Assembly (NCBI GenBank): GCA_015351705.1
Contig: JADIIM010000034.1
Location: 20,802 to 84,801 of the forward strand
Direction: 5' to 3'
Origin: Aeromicrobium sp.
GTDB lineage: Bacteria > Actinomycetota > Coriobacteriia > Anaerosomatales > Anaerosomataceae
Length of the DNA stretch: 64,000 nucleotides
Shown here: one piece after another, positions 4,778 to 27,241 of the stretch
Position numbering within the stretch: the first letter of the stretch is position 1
Layout: each line of letters starts with the position of its first letter
Notes under the pieces: generated by a model
The model's database searches: none
Told to the model about the DNA's origin: nothing
Seen by the model: only the letters and a program-made list of their open reading frames with translations
Program-made: the position numbers and the translations under genes

Positions 4778-6307
4778 TCACCGCACGCGAATGGCGTTGC
4801 GCCCCGCGTCCTTCGCCTCGTAGAGCGCCTGGTCAGCGCGTGCCAGCATCGGGTCGATGCCGTCGTCGGCGGGCCCGGCCGAGGTCACCCCGATGCTTGC
4901 GGTCACGTGAAGCGGCGTGTCGCCTGCCGCCATGGGCGCCTGTTCGATCGCGAGGCGGATGCGCTCGGCAAGGCCGATCGCGCCATCGTGGTCCGTTGAC
5001 GGGGCGAGTACCAGGAACTCCTCGCCCCCCATCCGCGCCGCGAGGTCGTAGTCCCGCACCGTCGATCGGATACGCTCGGCGATGTCGACGAGCACCGCAT
5101 CACCCACCGCGTGACCGTGCGCGTCGTTGACGTTCTTGAAGTGGTCGAGGTCGAGCATCATCACGGACAGCGGCGCGCCAGTGCGGCGGAAGCGGGCGAA
5201 CTCCTCCGTGAGGCGTTGGATGGCCTTGCGCCGGTTGGCCAGCCCGGTGAGCTCGTCGGTGACCGTCAGGCGCTCAAGGTCGTCGCGGTAGCGATCGAGC
5301 GCCTGCTCCACACGGCGGCGCGAGGTGATGTCACGCAGGGTGATCAGGTTCCCCGTGAGAGCGCCATGGTCCCGGAGCGGGGCCCAGCGGACCTCAAGGA
5401 CGAGGTCGTTGACGTGCTCGAACGTGGCCTCGCGCGCATGCTCAGAGACCGGATGGCCCTCGGCGTGTGCGCACCAGTCGGGGAGCGCATCACAGGCGAC
5501 GCGACCGATCGCGTCTCCGGTGAGTCCGGTCAACTCCTGAGCCGCCGGGTTGATGTCCACGATGCGGGCGTGTGCGTCGAGCACGATGACCCCTTCGGCC
5601 ATATGCTCCACGAGCCGGTCGCGGGCCATGGGGACGATGTCGAGCATCCCGTAGCGGAACAGCGCGAAGGCGATGAGCCAGCCGGTCGCGGTGAACACCA
5701 TGGGCGTCAGATCCAGGTCGGGGACCGGGCTCACGCCGAGCAGACTGGCGATGTTGATAAGCCACGGCAGCGACACGCCCAGCAGCGCTACGCCCGCCTG
5801 CCGGCGGTAGAGCGCCTGCGTGCGCACGAACGACTGGGCAAGCAGCACGAGAGTCACGAGGAGAAGCGCGTACGAGTAGACAGCGTTCACCCAGAACCAC
5901 GGACCGCCGCTGAGGATCGAGCCGGTCGTGCGGTGGCCGCCGTAGAACCACCCGTGGAGCGGGTCGGTCCACAAGATGATGAGCGTGAGGGCCGGGACGA
6001 CCGCGATCAGCGCGAGGTTGCGCCAGGTGAGGAGACGTGAGCGGCTCGTGAACTCGAGGGCGAAGGTGAGGATCGCGGCGGGGACGACCACCACGCCGAA
6101 GTAGGTCGCGTCGAGCCAGAAGGTGGCGACTCCGGGGTCGGCGGACAGCCAGCGGAGCGCGTACGTTGCGGCCCAGACCGACATGGCGCCCGTTGCGACC
6201 GCCAGGCTCGTCGCGCCGGGCGCGGCACGGCGCCGCCAACTCGCCACCGCGACGACCGCGGAGGCGATGGCCGAGATGATGAGGGCAACCGCATAGCCGG
6301 TGTTCAT
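4778..6307 (-). CDS. Membrane PAS-GGDEF diguanylate cyclase
   Basis: A 509-residue protein. Residues 1-225 contain seven transmembrane segments of the histidine-kinase-type 7TM N-terminal family; residues about 230-335 form a PAS domain (VIVLDAHARIVDINPAA); residues about 350-509 form a complete GGDEF domain. The active signature is intact as GGEEF, and an RDYD inhibitory site lies five residues before it, so this should be an active, product-inhibited cyclase making c-di-GMP. The ATG at 6307 follows GGAGACGCGCG; the frame is open far upstream, but that stretch reads through the tRNA gene on the opposite strand and is not coding. Confidence 0.92.
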   Translation of the reverse strand: MNTGYAVALIISAIASAVVAVASWRRRAAPGATSLAVATGAMSVWAATYALRWLSADPGVATFWLDATYFGVVVVPAAILTFALEFTSRSRLLTWRNLALIAVVPALTLIILWTDPLHGWFYGGHRTTGSILSGGPWFWVNAVYSYALLLVTLVLLAQSFVRTQALYRRQAGVALLGVSLPWLINIASLLGVSPVPDLDLTPMVFTATGWLIAFALFRYGMLDIVPMARDRLVEHMAEGVIVLDAHARIVDINPAAQELTGLTGDAIGRVACDALPDWCAHAEGHPVSEHAREATFEHVNDLVLEVRWAPLRDHGALTGNLITLRDITSRRRVEQALDRYRDDLERLTVTDELTGLANRRKAIQRLTEEFARFRRTGAPLSVMMLDLDHFKNVNDAHGHAVGDAVLVDIAERIRSTVRDYDLAARMGGEEFLVLAPSTDHDGAIGLAERIRLAIEQAPMAAGDTPLHVTASIGVTSAGPADDGIDPMLARADQALYEAKDAGRNAIRVR

Positions 6308-6391
6308 CGCGCGCGTCTCCTTGCCTGCATATCCGGCTTTCGTGAGTGTATCGGGAACCGCGGGTGCGCGCTTGACTGGATACCTGGTGCG

Positions 6392-6420
6392 TTGCCCCGG
6401 CATCGGAGCCTCGGTATACT
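6392..6420 (+). promoter_or_regulatory. Housekeeping-type promoter of tRNA-Ser
   Basis: TTGCCC (6392-6397) and TATACT (6415-6420) are separated by 17 bases, a near-consensus sigma-A arrangement. It ends 35 bases before the tRNA, which would give a leader of roughly 29 bases. Confidence 0.75.
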
Positions 6421-6455
6421 GCGCTACGCCGCCTTCGCGCAGGCGGCACCCCTGC

Positions 6456-6548
6456 GGAGGGGTGGCAGAGTGGTTGAATGCGGCGGTCTCGAAAACCGTT
6501 AGGCGGGTTTCCCCCGTCTCGAGGGTTCGAATCCCTCCCCCTCCGCCA
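6456..6548 (+). tRNA. tRNA-Ser (anticodon CGA)
   Basis: Acceptor stem GGAGGGG (6456-6462) pairs with CCCCTCC (6538-6544), followed by discriminator G and an encoded CCA. The anticodon loop CTCGAAA, flanked by GCGGT/ACCGT, gives anticodon CGA (reads UCG). A long variable arm (GGCGGGTTTCCCCCGTC region) and T arm GAGGG-TTCGAAT-CCCTC complete a class II serine tRNA of 90 nt plus CCA. Confidence 0.97.
6512..6535 (+). repeat. 24-bp direct repeat, copy 1 (inside tRNA-Ser)
   Basis: A 24-base segment covering the variable-arm end and T arm of tRNA-Ser is repeated exactly at 7454-7477. Exact duplication of a tRNA 3' part is the usual footprint of integrase-mediated insertion at a tRNA gene (attL/attR), though duplication of a tRNA gene followed by decay would look similar. 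Confidence 0.8.
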
Positions 6549-6562
6549 GTACGACACAGAAG

Positions 6563-6594
6563 AGCCCCGTTCGCCGAGTGAGGCGAGCGGGGCT
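6563..6594 (+). terminator. Terminator after tRNA-Ser
   Basis: A 13-bp perfect stem (AGCCCCGTTCGCC / GGCGAGCGGGGCT) with a six-base loop starts 15 bases after the tRNA and is followed by the T-rich GTCGTCTTGT. It is a rho-independent terminator. Confidence 0.8.
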
Positions 6595-6929
6595 GTCGTC
6601 TTGTCGACCACGACGAATCGTGTGTTCTCCTCATCAGGTCTGGCAGCAGAGGTCGTCGCCTCCGGCGATACCATCGGATCATGACCGAGCGGAGAGGTAG
6701 CTGTCCTGGCGCTCTACATACTGCTGGCACAGGGGCTCTCGTCCGTTTGCCTGACAGCCGAAGCGGCATCACACCTTCCTACACGGAAAGTGCGTGCGAT
6801 GCGCAGCCCCAGCGTGTGGAACTTCGCAAGCGCTTGCGTCAGGACAACGTGGGTCGGTCTGTTCCCAGCCGTCATGACGCTGGCAGCAGCACAACGGCCC
6901 GCTCCCGTTGTGATGGGGCGTACACCTGC
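6595..6929. other. Stretch without a recognisable gene
   Basis: The 335 bases between the tRNA terminator and the end of the small lipoprotein gene hold no convincing gene. ORFs that cross it in the plus frames have no recognisable motif or ribosome site and run on across the lipoprotein gene. The stretch lies inside the interval bounded by the tRNA direct repeats and may be decayed inserted DNA. Confidence 0.5.
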
Positions 6930-13834: not shown

Positions 13835-15157
13835 TCAGCGCTCGTCGGACTCCGGCGGCGGCACCGGCATGCGCGGGTCGGGTGCCGATGACACGTGCGG
13901 CGCGATGTCGAGCTCGGCGGCGTAGCGCCCGGGCTCGTCGAACAGCCGGAGCGCCTTCATCGGCACGGTGGCGGTTGCCGCGACCAGGATCAGCACGCCG
14001 AGCGCGGTGAAGGTCGCCTCGGCGCCGAACCGCTCGATGGCAAGCCCCGCTCCCATGTAGCCGAGCGGCCCTGCCGCGTAGTACGAGGCCATCAGCACAC
14101 CGAGTACGCGTCCACGACGCGCGGGATCGGTTCGCGTCTGCATCGCGAGGTTGATGAGCGGGTCCACGGGGCCCCAGAAGAGCCCGGCGAGCGCGGCGGC
14201 GCCCACGAGGAGCGCGTAGGTGGGCGCGAGCGCCATCGCGAGTATCGAGACCGAGGCGAGCACGACCGCTCCCGCGAAGACCGGGTAGCGCCGGACGCGG
14301 GGGCCGATCGCCGCGTAGGCAAGCGCGCCCACCAGTCCGCCGGCCGAGAGCGCGGTCAACACGAGCCCGAGTGCGGCAGGGCGGCCCTGCTGCTGGAAGA
14401 TGTAGGGGAGGACCACGCCCTCGATGGGCAGGTAGACCGCGACGATAAGCATGCTGATCAGCGTGGTCATGCGCAGCAGCGGGTCGCGCCACACGAGGCG
14501 GACGCCCTCGGCCGAGCCGGTGAGCACCGTCTTCGGGCGGTCTGCACGCTCGGGCGAGCCCACGCCCGGGGCCCGGATGAACATGACGGCGGCGCCCGAG
14601 AACACGAACCCCACGGCGGTGGCCCACAGGGTGGTCACCGGTCCGATCGTGGCGATCAGCACACCGCCGACGGCCGGGCCGATGAGGTAAGACACGCCCC
14701 AGGTGGCCTCGTGGATCGCGTTCGTCCTCGGCAGCGGCCAGCGCGCCTCCCTGCCGAGCTCGGGGATCATCGCCTCGCGCGCGGTGGCGCCGGCCGGGTC
14801 GAAGACCGCGCCAAGCACCACGAGCGCCAGGATGAGCGTCATGTCCAGGCCGAGCCAGCGGTCCACGAGCGGGATCGCCGCCACCGAGAGCGCCGAGCAG
14901 GCGTCGGAGAACACGGCCGTCCGCTTGCGGCCCAGGGTGTCCACGATCGATCCGGAGAAGAGCGCGGAGATCAGCAGCGGTATCGCGGTAGCGGCTCCTA
15001 CGAGCCCTGCCGAGGTCGCCAGGCCCGTGCGCTCGAGCACGAGCCACGGGATGGTGACCACCGCGATGCCGTTGCCGATCCCCGAGACGAGCACCGCGCT
15101 CTCCAGCAGCGCGAGCGGTCCGAGGCGGCGGGGCGCGTTTGGCGCCTCGCCTGTCAC
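13835..15157 (-). CDS. MFS transporter
   Basis: A 440-residue major facilitator with 12 predicted membrane segments, resembling enterobactin-exporter/MFS_3-type proteins. The cytoplasmic loop 2-3 signature appears as GSIVDTLGRKRTAV (G-x-x-x-D-x-x-G-R-K/R), and a weaker copy is in the second half. The real start is GTG 15157: it overlaps by one base the stop of a 53-residue membrane protein gene (TAGTG), so translation is probably coupled. Substrate unknown. Confidence 0.85.
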   Translation of the reverse strand: MTGEAPNAPRRLGPLALLESAVLVSGIGNGIAVVTIPWLVLERTGLATSAGLVGAATAIPLLISALFSGSIVDTLGRKRTAVFSDACSALSVAAIPLVDRWLGLDMTLILALVVLGAVFDPAGATAREAMIPELGREARWPLPRTNAIHEATWGVSYLIGPAVGGVLIATIGPVTTLWATAVGFVFSGAAVMFIRAPGVGSPERADRPKTVLTGSAEGVRLVWRDPLLRMTTLISMLIVAVYLPIEGVVLPYIFQQQGRPAALGLVLTALSAGGLVGALAYAAIGPRVRRYPVFAGAVVLASVSILAMALAPTYALLVGAAALAGLFWGPVDPLINLAMQTRTDPARRGRVLGVLMASYYAAGPLGYMGAGLAIERFGAEATFTALGVLILVAATATVPMKALRLFDEPGRYAAELDIAPHVSSAPDPRMPVPPPESDER

Positions 15158-15318
15158 TACCTGACCGCCACGCCGAGGCAGTAGGGCCAGATGATGAGCC
15201 CGAGCACCGCGGTCCAGAACGTCAGCTTGGCGTAGGCGATGGTGAACAGCCACCCGATGAACCAGATGATGCCCATGCCGGTGTCCACGCGTATCCTCTG
15301 CGTTCCTTGCCCTGCCAT
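15157..15318 (-). CDS. 53-residue membrane protein upstream of MFS gene
   Basis: A short gene with a perfect GGAGG site six bases before its ATG. The product has a basic N-terminus (AGQGTQRIRVDTG), then two hydrophobic segments, MGIIWFIGWLFTIAYAKL and FWTAVLGLIIWPYCLGVAV, forming a helical hairpin. Its TAG stop shares one base with the GTG start of the MFS gene. No family name is certain; it could be a small partner or stabiliser of the transporter. Confidence 0.75.
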   Translation of the reverse strand: MAGQGTQRIRVDTGMGIIWFIGWLFTIAYAKLTFWTAVLGLIIWPYCLGVAVR

Positions 15319-15369
15319 CACAACCTCCTCAGTCCAGCGGCCGCCGGCCGCCGCCGTTGTCTGATCGTC

Positions 15370-15810
15370 TCACGCGCAGAAGACGCGGATGTTGTCGCCG
15401 TCGGCCGAGTGCACGTTGATCTCCATCTCGCGGAGACTCTGGATGAGCTCCTCGATGTCCTCCGGCTTCAGGTTGTTGAAGTCGATCGACATGCCGTGCT
15501 CACCCATCGACTCGCTGATCTGGTCCATCGCCTGCGGCGGGATCAATGACGTCAGCTTCAGGCCGGCGCGCAGCAGGCCGAGCGGCACCTTGACGTCCAC
15601 CGTGTCCTTACCCGTGACCTTCACGTACAGGAACTTCGGGGTGCCGGTGGCCGAAGGTCCGGTGGGCCAGTCGTCAGACGGCATCGGCTCGCGAGACGGC
15701 GTCGCCTCTGACGCCGGCGTGCCGAGCGAGTCCAGGAGCAGGTCGGCCTCCTCGGCGGTGATCTTGCCCTCGGCCAGCATGCCGAGGATGCGCTTGCGGT
15801 CTTCGCTCAT
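15370..15810 (-). CDS. SHOCT-like / YvlB N-terminal domain protein
   Basis: A 146-residue protein. The first 30 residues, EDRKRILGMLAEGKITAEEADLLLDSL, form the short two-helix element found at the start of YvlB/LiaX-like and other SHOCT-like proteins ('r.iL.mle.GkIt.eEa..LL'). After a Pro/Ser-rich linker, residues about 55-146 hold FLYVKVTG, VKVPLGLLRAGLKLTSLIP and a final acidic stretch, the pattern usually seen downstream of that element. Third gene of the DUF2089 operon; probably an envelope-stress accessory protein, inferred from family only. Confidence 0.75.
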   Translation of the reverse strand: MSEDRKRILGMLAEGKITAEEADLLLDSLGTPASEATPSREPMPSDDWPTGPSATGTPKFLYVKVTGKDTVDVKVPLGLLRAGLKLTSLIPPQAMDQISESMGEHGMSIDFNNLKPEDIEELIQSLREMEINVHSADGDNIRVFCA

Positions 15811-15829
15811 GGTGGTGACTTCCTTTCTG

Positions 15830-16120
15830 TCAGTAGATGTCGACTTTGACGAAGCTGTCTTCGGTCACCGCGTCCACATGGGTACCGCGGACCTCGGCAA
15901 GGACGCGCAGTGAGCCGAGAACGAGTCGCGTGTAGTGGTGGTACCGCGCGCCCGACGCAAGGAGCGCAAGATCGACGAGCAGCGTGACGATGAGCGTCAG
16001 CACGAGCAGCGGGAGCAGCAGCGGCCACAGCAGCACGATCGGCAGCCACAGGCGGAACCCTCTCGCGCCGGCCTCGCGAACGCGCACGCGGATCATGAGC
16101 GGGGGCAGGTAGGCGTTCAT
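15830..16120 (-). CDS. Small membrane protein of the DUF2089 operon
   Basis: A 96-residue protein with one long hydrophobic stretch (residues about 24-55, LWLPIVLLWPLLLPLLVLTLIVTLLVDLAL split by prolines) that could span the membrane once or twice, followed by a basic tail (HHYTRLVLGSLRVLAEVRG). It overlaps the DUF2089 gene by four bases (ATGA) and is 19 bases from the SHOCT-like gene. No family recognised. Confidence 0.75.
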   Translation of the reverse strand: MNAYLPPLMIRVRVREAGARGFRLWLPIVLLWPLLLPLLVLTLIVTLLVDLALLASGARYHHYTRLVLGSLRVLAEVRGTHVDAVTEDSFVKVDIY

Positions 16121-16488
16121 CGCCGCATCCTCTTCGCAGCTTCGCTCGCGCTGATCTCGCCACGCTCCAGCAGGTCCAGCACCTCATCGCGCGGCTCCGG
16201 TGTGGGCTCGATCTCGACCTCGACGAGCGCGAGGCGCGCGGCGATGCGGTTGAGCCGGTTCTTGATCGTGGGGTAGCTCACGCCGAACGCCTTCTCCATC
16301 TGCTTGATCGAGCCGTGGGACCGCACGAACTCTCCGACGAAGACCTGGTCCTCATAGCGGAGCCGCGCCAGCGGCGGGAGGTCGAACTCGCCGTCGATGC
16401 CGATGTCCGTCTCCTTCAGGCGAATACCGGTGACGACGAAGTCGCGGTCTCCGGTGAGGTCGGTCAGGTCGTGCCAATCACGTGCCAT
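16117..16488 (-). CDS. DUF2089-family putative DNA-binding regulator
   Basis: A 123-residue protein similar to the DUF2089 family. Residues about 40-90 contain a helix-turn-helix: FVGEFVRSHGSIKQMEKAFGVSYPTIKNRLNRI, in which GSIKQMEKAFGVSYPTIKN is the helix-turn-helix unit. The C-terminus (EVLDLLERGEISASEAAKRM) repeats the short SHOCT-like 'll..GeIs..eA' element found in the operon's third gene. The N-terminal zinc ribbon of some DUF2089 proteins is absent. The ATG at 16488 follows GAAAGGGAG. Two direct repeats over its promoter suggest autoregulation. Confidence 0.8.
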   Translation of the reverse strand: MARDWHDLTDLTGDRDFVVTGIRLKETDIGIDGEFDLPPLARLRYEDQVFVGEFVRSHGSIKQMEKAFGVSYPTIKNRLNRIAARLALVEVEIEPTPEPRDEVLDLLERGEISASEAAKRMRR

Positions 16489-16529
16489 GGTCTCACTCCC
16501 TTTCAGCAATCATGAGCATAGTGTACCCA

Positions 16530-16546
16530 GAGATTGAGAAAGTCAA
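16530..16546 (-). promoter_or_regulatory. Operator-like direct repeat, proximal copy, overlapping -35
   Basis: On the plus strand GAGATTGAGAAAGTCAA; on the coding (minus) strand it begins TTGACT, a good -35 box, with TACACT/CACTAT 15-17 bases downstream as the likely -10. It is 42 bases before the DUF2089 start. Confidence 0.65.
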
Positions 16547-16550
16547 GCGT

Positions 16551-16567
16551 GAGATTGAGAAAATCAA
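16551..16567 (-). promoter_or_regulatory. Operator-like direct repeat, distal copy
   Basis: GAGATTGAGAAAATCAA differs from the proximal copy by one base out of 17. The start-to-start distance is 21 bases, i.e. two turns of the helix, so both would be read from the same face by a dimer or by two monomers. The DUF2089 helix-turn-helix protein encoded just downstream is the obvious candidate binder. Confidence 0.65.
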
Positions 16568-16647
16568 CTATTGCGTCGATCAGGGAACAGTTCTCGCGCG
16601 GAGCCCTGTTCGGGGACCAGTGACCTGCGGCAAGGGCGAGGCGCGGC

Positions 16648-17448
16648 CTACCAGCTGGTGGTATCGCTTTCTCGTGCGACCGGCAGCTCGAACCAGAACG
16701 TAGAGCCGACGCCCATCGCGCTCTCGGCATGAAGTCGTCCGCCGAGTCGCTCGATGACGGCCCGGCTGATCGTGAGCCCGACTCCGGCGCCGGGACTCTT
16801 GGCGATGTCAGGCTGCGGCAGCTGGCGGAACTCATCGAAGATCCCGGGCAGGTTCCCCTCGGGGATGCCCCGGCCGTTGTCGGAGACGGCGAAGCGGACG
16901 CGGTCTTCTCCGGCCGAGGCGCCGATAGTCACCGTTCCGCCGACGTCGGTGAACTTGATCGCGTTCCCGATCAGGCGGACGAGCGTCTGGCGCAGTCGCC
17001 GTGAGTCGGTCCGGAGGAGCGGGAGCCCGCCGCTGACCGTGCTCGACACCGTGACCCCCTTCTCGCGAGCGATCGGCGTCACCTGCTCGACGGCAGCGCC
17101 GACGACCTCGGCAGGATGCACGTGGTCATCGGATAGCCGGAGCGTGTCCGAGCGCAACGAGGCGAGATCAAGGATGTCCTGTGCCATCGCGTACAGGTAC
17201 CTTCCCGCGTCGCGGACGGCGGTCAGCTGCCTGCGCTGATCGTCGTTGAGGCCGTCGGCGAGGTCGAGCAGCAGCAGGTCGGAGAACCCGATGATGTGGT
17301 TCAAGGGGGTGTAGAACTCGTGGCTCATGGCCCCGAGGAAGTCGTCGCGAGAGCGTTGGCCCGCGACCAGCTCTTCCTCGAGCTGACGGATGCGAGCGAG
17401 CGACTCCTCGAGCTGGCGCCTGATGTGGGCGGTCTCGTCGTGCGTCAT
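16648..17448 (-). CDS. Soluble histidine kinase of the B12-sensor operon
   Basis: A 266-residue cytoplasmic kinase without sensor or membrane domains. Residues 5-35 form a coiled coil, residues 36-105 the HisKA dimerisation domain with phospho-acceptor His43 in MSHEFYTPLN (the common SHELRTPL has Phe-Tyr here), and residues about 150-258 the ATPase domain with N box RLIGNAIKFTD, G1 DNGRGIPEG and G2 GAGVGLTIS. It must receive its signal from a partner, most simply the B12 protein or the cyclase encoded upstream. Its ATG overlaps the cyclase stop by four bases. No response regulator is adjacent. Confidence 0.9.
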   Translation of the reverse strand: MTHDETAHIRRQLEESLARIRQLEEELVAGQRSRDDFLGAMSHEFYTPLNHIIGFSDLLLLDLADGLNDDQRRQLTAVRDAGRYLYAMAQDILDLASLRSDTLRLSDDHVHPAEVVGAAVEQVTPIAREKGVTVSSTVSGGLPLLRTDSRRLRQTLVRLIGNAIKFTDVGGTVTIGASAGEDRVRFAVSDNGRGIPEGNLPGIFDEFRQLPQPDIAKSPGAGVGLTISRAVIERLGGRLHAESAMGVGSTFWFELPVARESDTTSW

Positions 17449-18821
17449 CGGGGGTCGCTGGACCGCCGCGCGGTCTTGTCGGCGTACATGGCCTCGTCCG
17501 CTTCCGCGACGAGCCGGTGCAGGTCATCGAGACCGGCGGCCGTCCCGAGCGCAGTGCCGACCGACGCGACGAGCGGGCGACCGGCCGGGCCGACGGATCC
17601 GGAGAGCTCCGTGCGCAGGCGTTCGACCAAGGCGGCGAGGCCCGTCTGAGCGCCCTCCGTCATCAGGACCACGAACTCGTCACCGCCGATGCGCGCGATG
17701 ATGTCCGAGCGTCTGGCGCAACGGCGAAGCGTGTCCGCGAAGATTCGAAGCACCTCGTCGCCTGCTGCGTGTCCAAGCTCATCGTTGACTGCCTTGAACC
17801 CGTCAAGGTCGGTGAACAGGACGCCAGATGGCTCATCGGCCCGCGCCGCGCGCTCGAGTGCGACCGTCGCAAGGAACTCGAATCCCCGTTTGTTGTTAAG
17901 CCCGGTGAGCTGGTCCTCGAGTGCGAGCTCGCGTAGGCGTTCTGTCGCCGCGCGTTGCTCGGTCACATCTTCCGCGGCTCCGATGATCTGCGACACGCGC
18001 CCGTCCGGGAGTCGTGCGAACACGGTCTCCCGCGTATGAAGGATGCGCCAGGTGCCGTCGGCGGCCCGCGCACGGATGTCCCATTCCACCAGGTCGTCGT
18101 CGGCCGCGTCCGCGATCTCAAGGAGCGTCCGCTCGCGCAGACGTCGTGACGGCTCATCCAGGTAGGACTCGAACAGGTCGCGAAACGCGTCGGCTCCGGT
18201 GGCCTGCGTGTAGCCGAGTATGTTCTGTACGCCTCGGCTCGCGAAGACCACGCTGTGCGAGGGGAGGTCGAAGATGTAGATGATCGTGGGCGCGATGTCG
18301 ATGATGCTGTTGACCAGGCGACGGCTGCGCTCCAGCTCAGCGTTCTTGCGTGCGAGCTCGCGCTGAAGGCCCACGAGTTCGTTGTTGAGCCTGCTCAAGT
18401 GCGTCAACTCGTCGGGCGTGTCGGAGGTCGCCCCGCCGGCCTGCTGCGCCTTGTGCATCCCGCGAACGTGCGTGACGAGCTCCGAGTTGATGCGGACGAC
18501 CTCGGCGAGCATCTCGAGCGCCTCGGTGTCCGACGGCGAGCCGATCACGAGGACGCCCGAGCTGGTGACGACAGCGTTGAGATTGACTCCCAGCGGCACG
18601 TGGCAGGCATCGATCGTGATCGCCCACCCGAATGCGCTTCCTTCTGTCCGGAGCGCCTCGAAGAGGAGCCGCGTCTTGTCCGCATCGCTCGCGACCGCGA
18701 GGTCGGAAAGGTGGGTGCCCGCCGAGAGGGTCGGCGTTGCGCACAGGTTGTCCACCAGCACATCGTCGATGCGCCCAGTCTCGTCGCAGACGACGACGAA
18801 CCCGGAGTTGCGTGCAGGCAT
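17445..18821 (-). CDS. PAS-GGDEF diguanylate cyclase of the B12-sensor operon
   Basis: A 458-residue soluble protein. Residues 1-130 form an unassigned N-terminal domain (FVVVCDETGRIDDVLVDN; ITIDACHVPLGVNLNAVVTS) that could be a docking or PAS-like module; residues 130-165 are coiled coil; 165-285 a PAS domain (IIDIAPTIIYIFDLPSHSVVF) with PAC tail; 295-450 a GGDEF domain. The catalytic GGDEF is intact, with an RRSD inhibitory site five residues before it, so it should be an active c-di-GMP synthase. It is 12 bases after the B12-binding gene and overlaps the kinase gene by four. Confidence 0.9.
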   Translation of the reverse strand: MPARNSGFVVVCDETGRIDDVLVDNLCATPTLSAGTHLSDLAVASDADKTRLLFEALRTEGSAFGWAITIDACHVPLGVNLNAVVTSSGVLVIGSPSDTEALEMLAEVVRINSELVTHVRGMHKAQQAGGATSDTPDELTHLSRLNNELVGLQRELARKNAELERSRRLVNSIIDIAPTIIYIFDLPSHSVVFASRGVQNILGYTQATGADAFRDLFESYLDEPSRRLRERTLLEIADAADDDLVEWDIRARAADGTWRILHTRETVFARLPDGRVSQIIGAAEDVTEQRAATERLRELALEDQLTGLNNKRGFEFLATVALERAARADEPSGVLFTDLDGFKAVNDELGHAAGDEVLRIFADTLRRCARRSDIIARIGGDEFVVLMTEGAQTGLAALVERLRTELSGSVGPAGRPLVASVGTALGTAAGLDDLHRLVAEADEAMYADKTARRSSDPR

Positions 18822-18833
18822 GTGCGCTCCTGT

Positions 18834-19892
18834 CTACGTGCCGACCAGCGTGGCCGCGGTCTCGACCGCCCTCCGGGCATCGGGCGCGTAGGCATCGGCC
18901 CCCACTCGCTCGAAAAGGCCGGGCGCCAGGTTGAACGGGTAGCCGCCGACGATGATCGGCACCCCGGCGATCCGCTCGTCGGCCTTGAGGGCTCCGACGA
19001 CAGCGGCGACCTCGGGCACGTGGTAGGGCATCGTGGCCGAGAGTGCGATGACGTCGGCCTTGCGCTGTGCTGCGGCATCGACGATCGTCGCGGTGGGGGT
19101 GTTCGCGCCGATGAAGTGCGTGTCCCATCCCGCCATCTCGAAGTGGTCGGTCACCATCCGCAGCCCCAACTCGTGGAGCTCGTCGCCGACACACGCTGCC
19201 ACCAGGACGCCCTCGGTATGCTCGCCCGTGAACATGTAGCGGTACAACTGCGCCATCACCATCTGGGTGACGGCGGTCGCGTAGTGCTCCTGGGCGACGG
19301 TGATCTTGTTGAGATGCCAGAGCCTGCCGAGCTCGAGTTGCGCTCGCTCAAGCACGTGGCGGTACACATCACCGATGGCAACACCCCCCTCGACCGCGTC
19401 GATGATCGCCTGCACCGCGGTGGTGCGGTCTCCGCCGAGCACCGCACCCAGATAGCGGACGGCCAGGCCGGCCAGCGGCTGAGCCGGGTCCATGTTCGAC
19501 GGTGGCTCGCCCGAGAGCCCGTCGAGCCTGCCGAGAGACGTGTCGATGACGGATGCGGCGTCGTGCGCTACTGCCGGGGTCACCACGTCGCCGACCGCGT
19601 CCCTGACGTCGGCGAGGCTGCCGGTGAGCCACTCCACGGGAAGGCCGAGGTTCTCGAACAGCACGCGTACCCAGCGCACGTAGTCGTCGAAGATGATCTG
19701 CTCATCGGCCCACAGCGCCGTGGCCACGAAGCTCACGTGGTAGCCCGTGTCCTTGATCGTGTTCTGCATCTGTGACGCAGAGAAGGAGTCGAACAGCCCG
19801 GGCCATCGATGGTTCTGCCGGTCCAGGGCGGCGCGCACGATCGGGTCTACGTTCGCCCGCAGTTCCTCGGCAGCGTGCCTCCGTGCATCCAT
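18834..19892 (-). CDS. Cobalamin-binding protein with CarH/LitR-type photoreceptor signature
   Basis: A 352-residue soluble protein. Residues 1-130 are an unassigned helical domain; 135-215 resemble the B12-binding four-helix cap; 225-350 the Rossmann-like B12 domain. In CarH/LitR photoreceptors the cap carries W-x9-EH and the Rossmann domain E/DxHxxG. Here W192, E202 and H203 fit exactly, His193 follows the Trp as does the light-induced second ligand of CarH, and E238-L-H240-x-x-G243 provides the lower His ligand. A Ser after LxL (S285) and GG (316-317) complete the B12 fold. There is no MerR DNA-binding domain. The gene leads an operon with a cyclase and a kinase. A corrinoid methyltransferase role is less likely, as no partner is present. 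Confidence 0.88.
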   Translation of the reverse strand: MDARRHAAEELRANVDPIVRAALDRQNHRWPGLFDSFSASQMQNTIKDTGYHVSFVATALWADEQIIFDDYVRWVRVLFENLGLPVEWLTGSLADVRDAVGDVVTPAVAHDAASVIDTSLGRLDGLSGEPPSNMDPAQPLAGLAVRYLGAVLGGDRTTAVQAIIDAVEGGVAIGDVYRHVLERAQLELGRLWHLNKITVAQEHYATAVTQMVMAQLYRYMFTGEHTEGVLVAACVGDELHELGLRMVTDHFEMAGWDTHFIGANTPTATIVDAAAQRKADVIALSATMPYHVPEVAAVVGALKADERIAGVPIIVGGYPFNLAPGLFERVGADAYAPDARRAVETAATLVGT

Positions 19893-20037
19893 GGGTGCCT
19901 CCGGTCGGCGTTTGTGATCTTGCGGCTATGGTACCCGTTCGGACACACGGCAGCGTCGCTCGAGTACCGCGGGGCCCTTGGTGAGCGATTTGCTACGATG
20001 ACCGCTGATCCGCACGCCCGATGCGAGATGAGATGCC

Positions 20038-20310
20038 GTGACGCGCGCGCTGTCCAAGACACCTCTGCTGGTCATAGCCGTTCTGGCCGTCAGCCTGATC
20101 GCCCTGCAGTGTCCTGTGCCTACGTGCACCGGGTGTGCGGGTGATGAGGTCGTCGTGAAGCAGGCGGGCGTCGTGTCGTTCGCCACCGCGTTCGCCGCCA
20201 TCACTTCCGCAGTCCAGCTCGCGGACGCGGGACGCTTGTCGCTCGCTGTGTCAGCCACGCCGGACGTGTCCAGCGATCTGGCGTTCATGTGCTCTCGCTT
20301 GATCATCTGA
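20038..20310 (+). CDS. Small exported or membrane hypothetical protein
   Basis: A 90-residue protein from a GTG start with only a weak ribosome site. Residues 8-24 (LLVIAVLAVSLIALQCP) are a signal or membrane helix; a cysteine cluster CPVPTCTGC follows, then a second apolar stretch (VSFATAFAAITSAVQLA). No family recognised. It is transcribed away from the B12 operon. Confidence 0.5.
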   Translation: MTRALSKTPLLVIAVLAVSLIALQCPVPTCTGCAGDEVVVKQAGVVSFATAFAAITSAVQLADAGRLSLAVSATPDVSSDLAFMCSRLII

Positions 20311-20370
20311 GATGACGAGGCCGCTGTACGGCCTGATGATCATCGTCCCTGCTCGGCGCGAGCTCCGTTC

Positions 20371-20405
20371 GCGCACCGCTTGCCGCTTGCGGTGAGGCGG
20401 TGCGC
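20371..20405. terminator. Stem-loop between the small protein and the lipoprotein gene
   Basis: GCGCACCGC (20371-20379) pairs with GCGGTGCGC (20397-20405). No T-run follows on the plus strand, so it may be a weak terminator of the 20038 gene or a leader structure of the lipoprotein mRNA. Confidence 0.4.
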
Positions 20406-20450
20406 GGCGCTACGCGGAGCACCCGCGCCCCTTCGACAAGGAGCACCCTC

Positions 20451-20894
20451 ATGTCAACAGTCCTCACGCGCGCAACGCGCGTCATCGCGGTCGCCGCATC
20501 GGCCGTCGCTCTCATCCTGACCATAGGCTGTGGTGGCGGAGCCGACGCCATCGGGGTCAACGCTCTCGCGGCCGACCCCATGGCCTTCTCGGGCACCGTC
20601 ACGGTCAAAGGCGTCGTCCAGGACGTCGACGCCGCGGGCCAGTTCGTCGTGATCATCGACGAAGACGAGTACGCGACGTGCGGCCTCTATCCATGCGCCG
20701 GTGCGGGCATCGTGCCGCTGCACGTGCCCGTCGACGGCTCGTCGTCATCGGCAGGCACGGTCTACAGCGGGAGCATGCCGAACATCGAGGACTTCGTTGT
20801 GGTGGTGGGCGAAGTGAAGTCCCTTCCGCAGGGACTCGTCTTCGACGTCCATCGCATGGAGCGCGGTGGCGCCACGCTCCTCGCCCGGCAGTAG
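20451..20894 (+). CDS. Putative lipoprotein partner of an ABC exporter
   Basis: A 147-residue protein with a lipoprotein-type signal (basic start, apolar core ALILTIGCGG with Cys27 as likely lipid site). The mature part contains FSGTVTVKGVVQDVDAAGQ, FVVIIDEDEYATCGLYPC and FVVVVGEVKSLPQGLVFDV, an alternation of strands that looks like an OB-fold, with two cysteines spaced CGLYPC that might bind metal or form a disulfide. AAGGAG precedes the ATG. It is nine bases before the permease gene, so it probably serves the same exporter. Confidence 0.75.
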   Translation: MSTVLTRATRVIAVAASAVALILTIGCGGGADAIGVNALAADPMAFSGTVTVKGVVQDVDAAGQFVVIIDEDEYATCGLYPCAGAGIVPLHVPVDGSSSSAGTVYSGSMPNIEDFVVVVGEVKSLPQGLVFDVHRMERGGATLLARQ

Positions 20895-25300: not shown

Positions 25301-27241
25301 GTGTCATCCACTCAGATGACTGAGCAGCCCGACGGATCACCCATCTTCACCCGGCGACGTGAGCGCATCGGCGCGGCACGAGCAGCCGTGCGCATGACGC
25401 GTCCGGTGGGCGTACTCGCCCTACTCGTCGCGGCCGTGCCGATCTGGCTCGACGCCCCTGCCTGGCCGGTCTCGGCGGCGGTCAGCGCCGTGCTCGTAGG
25501 TCTCGCTCTCGTACTCGTACGAGGTCTCGGTGCCATGGAGGCTCGGCTCGGAGACACCGCTCGCACCATCGCGCTCGCCGAGCGCCTCTACGGGTCCACG
25601 AACGACGGCGTTGTGATCACCTCGGCCGACGGGACGATCGTCGACGTCAACGACGCGTACTGTAGGCTTCACGGCCACCCGCGCGAGGCGGTGCTCGGCC
25701 AGAACCCGAGGATGATGAAGTCCGGCCGGCATCCGCGCGAGTTCTACGAGGAGATGTGGCGCTCGATCACGAGCGATGGTCACTGGGAAGGTGAGATATG
25801 GGACCGTCGTGCCGACGATCAGCTCATCGTGAAGTGGCTGTCCATCACCGCGGTCCGTGACGAGCGCGGCGCTGCCGCCGAGTACGTCGGCGTGTTCACC
25901 GACCTCACGCCCCTTCGCGAGAGCGAGGAGCGGGCCGAGTGGGTCGCCACCCACGATCCGCTGACCGGTCTGCCCGATCGCAGACTGCTCGCAAGCCGCT
26001 ACGAGGCGCTCGTTGCGCACTCGCATCGGCACGAGGGCCTGGTCGCGGTCCTGCTCGTGGACCTCGACCGCTTCGGCGAGGTGAACGACGCGTTCGGTCA
26101 CGTCTGCGGCGACGAGGTGCTCGCCGAGACGGCACGCAGGTGTGAGGCGGCCCTGCGCGAGGAGGACATACTGGGACGAGTGGGAGGTGACACGTTCCTC
26201 GTCGTGCTGTCGGATGTCTCCGGTTCGCGTGACGTCGACGTGGTCGCCGACCGGCTGCTCTCGGAGATCTCCGAGCCGATCGCCGTGAGAGATCGCACCG
26301 CGCACCTGACCGCGAGCATCGGGGTAGCGCTGAGCAACGGGGACACGCGTCTGGAGGACCTCGCACGCAACGCCGAGACGGCAACTGCCCGGGCGAAGAG
26401 CGCGGGCGGCTCCCGTTACGAGTACTTCAGCCCTGACATGCAGGCCGAGTCCTCGCGCCGTCATGCGGTCGAGCGGGAGCTGCGGTTCGCGCTCTCGCAC
26501 GGGGGGCTGCGTCTTGAGTACCAGCCGCAGGTGGACCTGCGGACCGGTGACATCGGCGGTCTGGAGGCGCTCGTTCGGCTGACCACGCCGGACGGCGACA
26601 CGATCATGCCCGGGGAGGTCGTCCCGGTCGCCGAGCGCACCGGGCTCGCCATCGACCTTGGCGCGTGGGTCCTCGGCCAGGCGTGTGACGATCTGGTCGT
26701 CCTGCGCGAGCGCGGGTACGCCGGGAGGGTCTCGGTGAACTTCTCGGCGCACGAGTTCTCGCGCGAGTCGCTGGTCGATGAGGTCCTCGCGGCGGTGGGT
26801 TCACGGGGCCTGTCTCCGCAGGACCTGGAGATCGAGATCACCGAGTCCGCGATGATCTCTCAGGCCGATGTGGCCGAGGCCCACGTGCGCCGGCTGCGCA
26901 GGGAAGGCTTCGGCATCGCGCTCGACGACTTCGGCACGGGCTACGCCTCCGTGTCCTACGTGCAGCGGTTCCGGCCCACCACCATCAAAGTCGACCGCAC
27001 CTTCATCCAGGGCCTGCCCGCCGAGTCCAGCGCGAGCGCGATCGTGCTCGCGACCCTGGTCCTCGCAAAGGGCACGGGCGCTGCGGTCGTGGCCGAAGGC
27101 CCTGAGACAGAAGAGCAGGTCCGCTTCCTCCGGAAGAACCGGTACACCTACGCGCAGGGGTACTACTTCAGCCGGCCTGCGCCGCTCGACGCCGTGTTCG
27201 ACCTGCTGGACAACGCGCCGTTCGAGCTGCCGGGCGACTGA
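25301..27241 (+). CDS. Membrane PAS-GGDEF-EAL c-di-GMP enzyme
   Basis: A 646-residue protein. Two membrane segments (about 35-75), PAS domain (95-205; VVITSADGTIVDVNDAY), GGDEF (220-375) and EAL (390-640). The GGDEF site reads GGDTF, with Thr in place of the metal-binding Glu, though the REED inhibitory site is kept; cyclase activity is doubtful and the domain may be a GTP or c-di-GMP sensor. The EAL domain looks catalytic: LEALVRL, NFSAHEF, ESAM, DDFGTGYASVSYV, KVDRTFI and VAEGPETEEQ. A net phosphodiesterase is expected. Start GTG 25301; ATG 25316 is an alternative. Confidence 0.92.
   Translation: MSSTQMTEQPDGSPIFTRRRERIGAARAAVRMTRPVGVLALLVAAVPIWLDAPAWPVSAAVSAVLVGLALVLVRGLGAMEARLGDTARTIALAERLYGSTNDGVVITSADGTIVDVNDAYCRLHGHPREAVLGQNPRMMKSGRHPREFYEEMWRSITSDGHWEGEIWDRRADDQLIVKWLSITAVRDERGAAAEYVGVFTDLTPLRESEERAEWVATHDPLTGLPDRRLLASRYEALVAHSHRHEGLVAVLLVDLDRFGEVNDAFGHVCGDEVLAETARRCEAALREEDILGRVGGDTFLVVLSDVSGSRDVDVVADRLLSEISEPIAVRDRTAHLTASIGVALSNGDTRLEDLARNAETATARAKSAGGSRYEYFSPDMQAESSRRHAVERELRFALSHGGLRLEYQPQVDLRTGDIGGLEALVRLTTPDGDTIMPGEVVPVAERTGLAIDLGAWVLGQACDDLVVLRERGYAGRVSVNFSAHEFSRESLVDEVLAAVGSRGLSPQDLEIEITESAMISQADVAEAHVRRLRREGFGIALDDFGTGYASVSYVQRFRPTTIKVDRTFIQGLPAESSASAIVLATLVLAKGTGAAVVAEGPETEEQVRFLRKNRYTYAQGYYFSRPAPLDAVFDLLDNAPFELPGD

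Follow-up and report, generated by a model that had tools for sequence, protein, structure and literature searches.

A photocobilin-type protein, a diguanylate cyclase and a histidine kinase in one operon of an Anaerosomataceae genome: a candidate light-set c-di-GMP switch with a conserved PAS-fold partner domain

What does a B12-binding light sensor control when it has no DNA-binding domain of its own, and through which part of its partners would the signal pass? The question is raised by an operon in a stretch of 64,000 nucleotides from Aeromicrobium sp. (GTDB lineage Bacteria; Actinomycetota; Coriobacteriia; Anaerosomatales; Anaerosomataceae; GenBank assembly GCA_015351705.1, contig JADIIM010000034.1, positions 20,802 to 84,801 of the forward strand). 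This whole stretch is called the window below, and its source genome amounts to 2.07 Mb in 60 contigs. Three open reading frames (ORFs) follow one another on the minus strand, encoding a photocobilin-type protein of 352 amino acids (18834..19892), a diguanylate cyclase of 458 (17445..18821) and a soluble histidine kinase of 266 (16648..17448), with a 12-base gap and then a 4-base overlap between them, just as an earlier reading made from the letters alone (the sequence-only reading) had laid them out. Its core proposal, a CarH-like adenosylcobalamin (AdoCbl) module that lacks a DNA-binding domain and is coupled to both cyclase and kinase, is supported by our analysis, although it overlooked the conserved partner domain at the N terminus of the cyclase and the kinase as apparently the usual output in relatives. 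Our answer, to which we give a probability of roughly 0.58, is that an AdoCbl photocobilin acts on this PAS-fold partner domain and that light thereby sets the output of cyclic di-GMP (c-di-GMP).

The 352-residue protein consists of three domains, all on the minus strand. Residues 3-118 (19539..19886) form a phycobiliprotein-like globin, matched in Pfam by PF00502 Phycobilisome with an E-value of 7.1e-8 and 33.0 bits against a cut-off of 22.2 bits, so the description of this region as an unassigned helical domain was mistaken. The B12-binding_2 helical cap at residues 146-216 (19245..19457; PF02607, 6e-12) holds W192, H193, E202 and H203 and is also recognised by conservation, and the B12-binding Rossmann domain at residues 229-343 (18864..19208; PF02310, 8.6e-23) holds the lower-ligand His240. 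With a globin of the phycobiliprotein type at its N terminus, the protein belongs to the photocobilins or photoglobins, and the solved structures closest by sequence are the photocobilins 8j2w, 8j2x and 8j2y. The AlphaFold2 model has a mean pLDDT of 94.3; in Foldseek the photocobilins align to it over the B12 region alone, with a whole-model TM of about 0.55, because the domain order differs from theirs. On the whole, the protein is likely a photocobilin-type light sensor, and by every sequence feature tested except Asp237 in the light signature it is a member of this known photoreceptor family. The CarH/LitR label is rejected, as Pfam finds the globin and no MerR domain, and the CarH model of NCBIfam gives 48.5 bits, its cut-off being 400. 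What CarH and LitR have in common with the window protein is the B12-binding module with W-x9-EH and the lower-ligand His, whereas they carry a MerR DNA-binding domain and the window protein has a globin and enzymatic partners instead.

Photoglobins, reportedly described by Schneider et al. in 2022, are said to be globin-B12 pairs linked to signal-transduction genes. In the available text of PMC10979010, SasPcob and AbDPcob (8J2W, 8J2X, 8J2Y) combine a CarH-like B12 module with a phycobiliprotein-like globin, the key residues being alike. The window protein differs from them by its N-terminal globin and by having cyclase and kinase on separate proteins; the window cyclase has the PAS-fold partner domain in addition, no heme oxygenase is found for the window system, and AbDPcob has a His at the position of D48. 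The sequence-only reading knew of no characterised system of this composition; a photocobilin-GGDEF fusion has in fact been characterised (PMC10979010), while the three-gene arrangement is not met in the parts of that literature available to us. In the BBAG-2 clusters of globin, B12 protein and pre-PcyA, as far as PMC10151467 describes them, a bilin-binding globin of the photoglobin lineage likewise adjoins a B12-binding protein, but as separate genes, in genomes with a bilin reductase and a heme oxygenase; the window globin and B12 module are fused, and no PF01126 heme oxygenase is found.

The ligand residues were followed in 80 named relatives and their loci, the nearest ones among at least 476 (handles below beginning with L denote loci, those with G genomes). 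W192, E202, H203 and G243 are kept in 80/80 and H240 in 79/80; in a set of 46 aligned homologues all five are invariant and E238 is nearly so, which confirms the B12 signature pointed out earlier. E238-x-H240 gives the E/DxH motif, and W192 with E202-H203 gives W-x9-EH. H193 is indeed present after the Trp, but it is no family feature, 10 of the 80 relatives having His and 66 having Gln; its suggested role as the light-induced axial ligand is weak, for SasPcob has Gln and its light state is described as ligated by water or hydroxide and not as bis-His (PMC10979010). The light signature published for B12 domains comprises GxxW, EH, GxxH and GxxxP (available text of PMC11796333), and it is incomplete here: GxxW (189-192), EH (202-203) and GxxxP (262-266) are present, while the Gly of GxxH is Asp237. 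In the globin, Asp48 and Trp74 correspond to Asp270 and Trp296 of SasPcob (numbered as the deposited sequence plus 6, anchored on Trp61, Glu71 and His108) and are conserved in 79/80 and 80/80 relatives; D48 aligns with the Asp following the Arg of the phycobiliprotein motif. AbPcob, a weak biliverdin binder, has a His at the equivalent position (PMC10979010), and because it is without the Asp, this bilin-contacting residue is not strictly defining for photocobilins. In a Methanomicrobiales photocobilin (L090, 6001-6978, plus strand) Gly replaces D48, and bilin binding has possibly been lost there.

We then consider the cyclase, in which residues 1-150 (18372..18821, minus strand) are the partner domain with its coil. 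Residues 1 to about 97 have a PAS fold in the predicted structure and are followed by a coil with an LNNEL motif, and a Pfam search of 35 members of the partner-domain family gives no credible match. A second PAS domain (PAS_3) lies at residues 192-282 (17976..18248, minus; PF08447, 1.2e-6, 29.1 bits against 25.6), and the GGDEF domain at residues 301-454 (17460..17921, minus; PF00990, 4e-36), where the active site (GGDEF, 379-383) and the inhibitory site (RxxD, 370-373) are both intact, as had been said. In 68 of the 80 named loci a full partner domain is encoded downstream of the photocobilin, at most 600 bases away: on a kinase in 61, on a GGDEF protein in 5 and as a standalone domain in 2. 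Counted by type of partner, 66 loci have a kinase with at least the coil, 6 a GGDEF protein and 2 the standalone domain; one further locus has a short ORF with the coil alone and five have none of these partners. Among the 69 genomes of the window's order, the domain is found in six (threshold E 1e-6; E 1e-10 was applied to another class), and a photocobilin adjoins it in all six. In addition, photocobilin and kinase stand in a single reading frame at L124 (5956-8823, plus) and L127 (5899-8499, plus), and these apparent fusions support a functional link. The L124 record is labelled as a Klebsiella pneumoniae metagenome-assembled genome, and looks like a misassigned bin. The two standalone domains, neither of them joined to a kinase or GGDEF domain, come from Adhaeribacter records (L102, 7057-7572, plus, 171 amino acids; L129, 7002-7496, plus, 164 amino acids).

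From this pairing we infer that the partner domain is the receiver of the photocobilin signal, that elsewhere the usual output would be the kinase that carries it, and that the window operon redirects this output to c-di-GMP. A broader version is put forward more tentatively, at somewhat less than even odds: the uncatalogued PAS-fold domain may be a plug-in receiver, docked by stand-alone photocobilins and moved between kinase, cyclase and adaptor outputs, with the system working free of biliverdin or with an unknown bilin where no heme oxygenase is found, the window lineage included. The photocobilin family itself is already known; what appears to be new is the partner domain as a putative conserved receiver with exchangeable outputs, along with the missing bilin source.

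The architecture, the ligand residues, the cyclase and kinase motifs and the pairing are read from sequence or predicted structure, and the following scheme would connect them. The photocobilin likely binds AdoCbl, and light would break the Co-C bond and change the shape of the protein. The partner domain would then be contacted differently by the dark, AdoCbl-bound state and by the light state, the LNNEL-bearing coil would relay this difference into the GGDEF domain and, probably, the kinase, and light would thereby set the c-di-GMP output; the separate sensorless kinase probably still takes the signal from the complex. Two precedents are available for such control (PMC10979010): with AdoCbl alone, light raises the cyclase turnover of AbDPcob by more than a factor of 10, and photocobilins supplied as separate proteins alter this activity in trans, on the isolated cyclase domain. 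The source genome contains 14 GGDEF matches and no PilZ match, and Rfam finds in the window one tRNA and no c-di-GMP riboswitch above threshold.

Which chromophores could be supplied was examined in the genomes. The source genome has a CobA/BtuR adenosyltransferase (3.9e-59) and a ferrochelatase (1.8e-57), with no match found for the PduO type of adenosyltransferase. The heme oxygenase PF01126 has no match in any of the order's 69 genomes; it is found in 7 of 49 named photocobilin genomes but not in the other 42. The 49 stem from a choice of 50 among the 80 loci, which left aside the four from the window's order, covered by the 69-genome search, and 26 others, irrespective of outcome. No HutW above cut-off is found in the 69 genomes; weaker matches occur in all 69 and also in 14 of 14 control genomes, one control being above cut-off, and are therefore read as other radical SAM proteins. 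In other lineages, an ABM-fold IsdG/HmuQ-like gene of about 98 amino acids adjoins the photocobilin in 24 of the 80 named loci, none of them from the window's order (L057, L062-L064, L066, L067, L070, L071, L075, L080, L082, L094, L096, L102, L105, L106, L108, L110, L111, L123-L125, L127 and L129). In 22 of them it precedes the photocobilin on the same strand at a distance of 7-118 bases (at L096 it is broken in frame), and at L062 and L124 on the opposite strand. Every one of the 18 members aligned has a match to the HmuQ model (9.3e-13 at best; 46 bits for the first member, where the cut-off is 130), and 15 of the 18 match IsdI. IsdI and IsdG are among the solved relatives; Trp56 and His75 do not vary, and Ser6 takes the place of an Asn of IsdG. 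The gene is a candidate for the bilin-making enzyme in those species. It was not found in the window, 11 loci of the order, three further stretches and 11 small genome pieces, the rest of the genome not having been searched. Counts combined by hand give 30 of the 49 genomes with neither a PF01126 match nor a neighbouring IsdG/HmuQ-like gene. Although the window protein retains the bilin-contacting residues, no bilin-making enzyme is found, and a B12-only, green-light sensor is therefore favoured.

Several observations weigh against the proposed light-to-cyclase route. The top row of Foldseek by E-value is 8jbs, a CarH-like B12 domain of the MerR family, and no photocobilin. Asp237 stands where 62 of the 80 relatives have the Gly of GxxH. 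A B12-only sensor also leaves unexplained why D48 persists in species for which no bilin source was found. The pairing has its exceptions too: the partner domain is absent from 6 of the 12 photocobilin-bearing genomes of the order, the full domain is missing from 12 of the 80 named loci, the 80 include repeats such as nine Azospirillum records, and for 2 of 10 partner-domain matches in the other class the 1.5 kb examined contains no photocobilin. Furthermore, SasPcob without biliverdin, acting in trans, is described as active in the dark and inhibitory in light (PMC10979010), and on account of this opposite sign the direction of control may be reversed in the window system. The two partner-domain proteins without photocobilin within 1.5 kb are those at L148 and L149; the latter is a partner domain-GGDEF protein, and its genome, G069, has photocobilins elsewhere.

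Other explanations differ in what the protein senses or in what it is. The globin could bind a bilin, either imported or produced by an enzyme that goes unrecognised, so that red and green light are both sensed. The retained Asp48 and Trp74, where the weak biliverdin binder AbPcob has a His at the Asp position (PMC10979010), and the ferrochelatase speak for this two-chromophore photocobilin, but with PF01126 and above-cut-off HutW absent across the order and the IsdG/HmuQ-like gene not found in the pieces searched, we consider it rather unlikely. Still less probable is a B12 domain that senses not light but the supply of AdoCbl or the redox state, with cyclase and kinase controlled accordingly. 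Many relatives do come from anaerobic lineages (heliobacteria, methanogens, Cloacimonadota), in which light sensing is not obvious. However, the equivalents of the invariant W192, E202 and H203 frame the photolabile adenosyl group in photocobilins and CarH (PMC10979010), relatives with these motifs are described as responding to green light (PMC11796333), and B12 sensing needs no bilin-type globin. That the protein is an MtbC/MttC-like corrinoid methyl carrier is suggested by the best NCBIfam family, MtbC, and by relatives named methanogenic corrinoid protein MtbC1 in some databases, yet the score of 60.5 bits is far under the MtbC cut-off of 350 and the neighbours at the 80 loci are signalling genes, so this identity is rejected as highly improbable. 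No methyltransferase is among the families listed for 41 of 59 upstream ORFs (25 of 35 families) or for 33 of 47 second-downstream ORFs (25 of 37 families). An association of the family with corrinoid methyltransferases, which the sequence-only reading had named as speaking against it, did not appear, the partners being mostly kinases (66) and GGDEF proteins (6).

The remaining alternative concerns the output: the kinase may be merely co-transcribed and stand outside the light pathway, the cyclase alone being controlled. It is a soluble protein in which Pfam finds no sensor domain, only HisKA (PF00512, residues 34-100) and HATPase (PF02518, residues 148-258), in agreement with its earlier description as sensorless, and its motifs are intact (SHEF with His43, NAIKF, DNGRG and the GVGLT box). 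It has no partner domain, and in G003, whose photocobilin is 71% identical, photocobilin and cyclase occur with no kinase directly behind. The three-gene order proposed for a survey recurs among the photocobilin-bearing genomes of the order in G055, and the others are arranged differently: photocobilin then cyclase in G003, G035 and G050; photocobilin then a partner domain fused to a kinase in G018; a MASE3-GAF kinase upstream of the photocobilin, with the partner domain absent, in G026; and neither cyclase nor kinase directly behind the photocobilin in G031, G043, G007, G009 and G010. Against a bystander role, G055 retains the kinase third in the identical order, the kinase tree places the window kinase together with its G055 and G018 counterparts at a support of 0.94 (0.35 when G026 is added), and the full partner domain is on the kinase in 61 of the 80 named loci. 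We therefore hold this alternative to be unlikely, about as much as the two-chromophore one. We read the operon variants as domain swapping, in which most named loci would have the partner domain on the kinase, and the pairs of this order mostly put it on the GGDEF protein and leave the kinase as a gene of its own.

As for the surroundings, a scan of 15300-20500 for promoters and terminators found no element. A small gene cluster with DUF2089 and SHOCT-like domains (15370-16509, minus) lies 138 bases beyond the kinase, and an MFS transporter (13835-15253, minus) is closest to the Tap efflux family, with 358 bits under a curated cut-off of 625. Further GGDEF proteins of the window are a receiver-GGDEF protein (254-1318, minus), a 7TM-PAS-GGDEF protein (4778-6772, minus) and a PAS-GGDEF-EAL protein (25301-27241, plus).

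The function of stand-alone photocobilins has been described as less clear (PMC10979010), and the pairing points to their likely natural partner, down to a precise domain, in many lineages. If the partner domain is a docking module, kinases and cyclases would gain a modular green-light switch made of two parts. A recognised bilin source is often lacking while the bilin-contacting Asp is nearly invariant, which raises the question of what, if anything, the globin binds; in the species of the 24 named loci concerned, the IsdG/HmuQ-like gene offers a concrete candidate for the source of a bilin.

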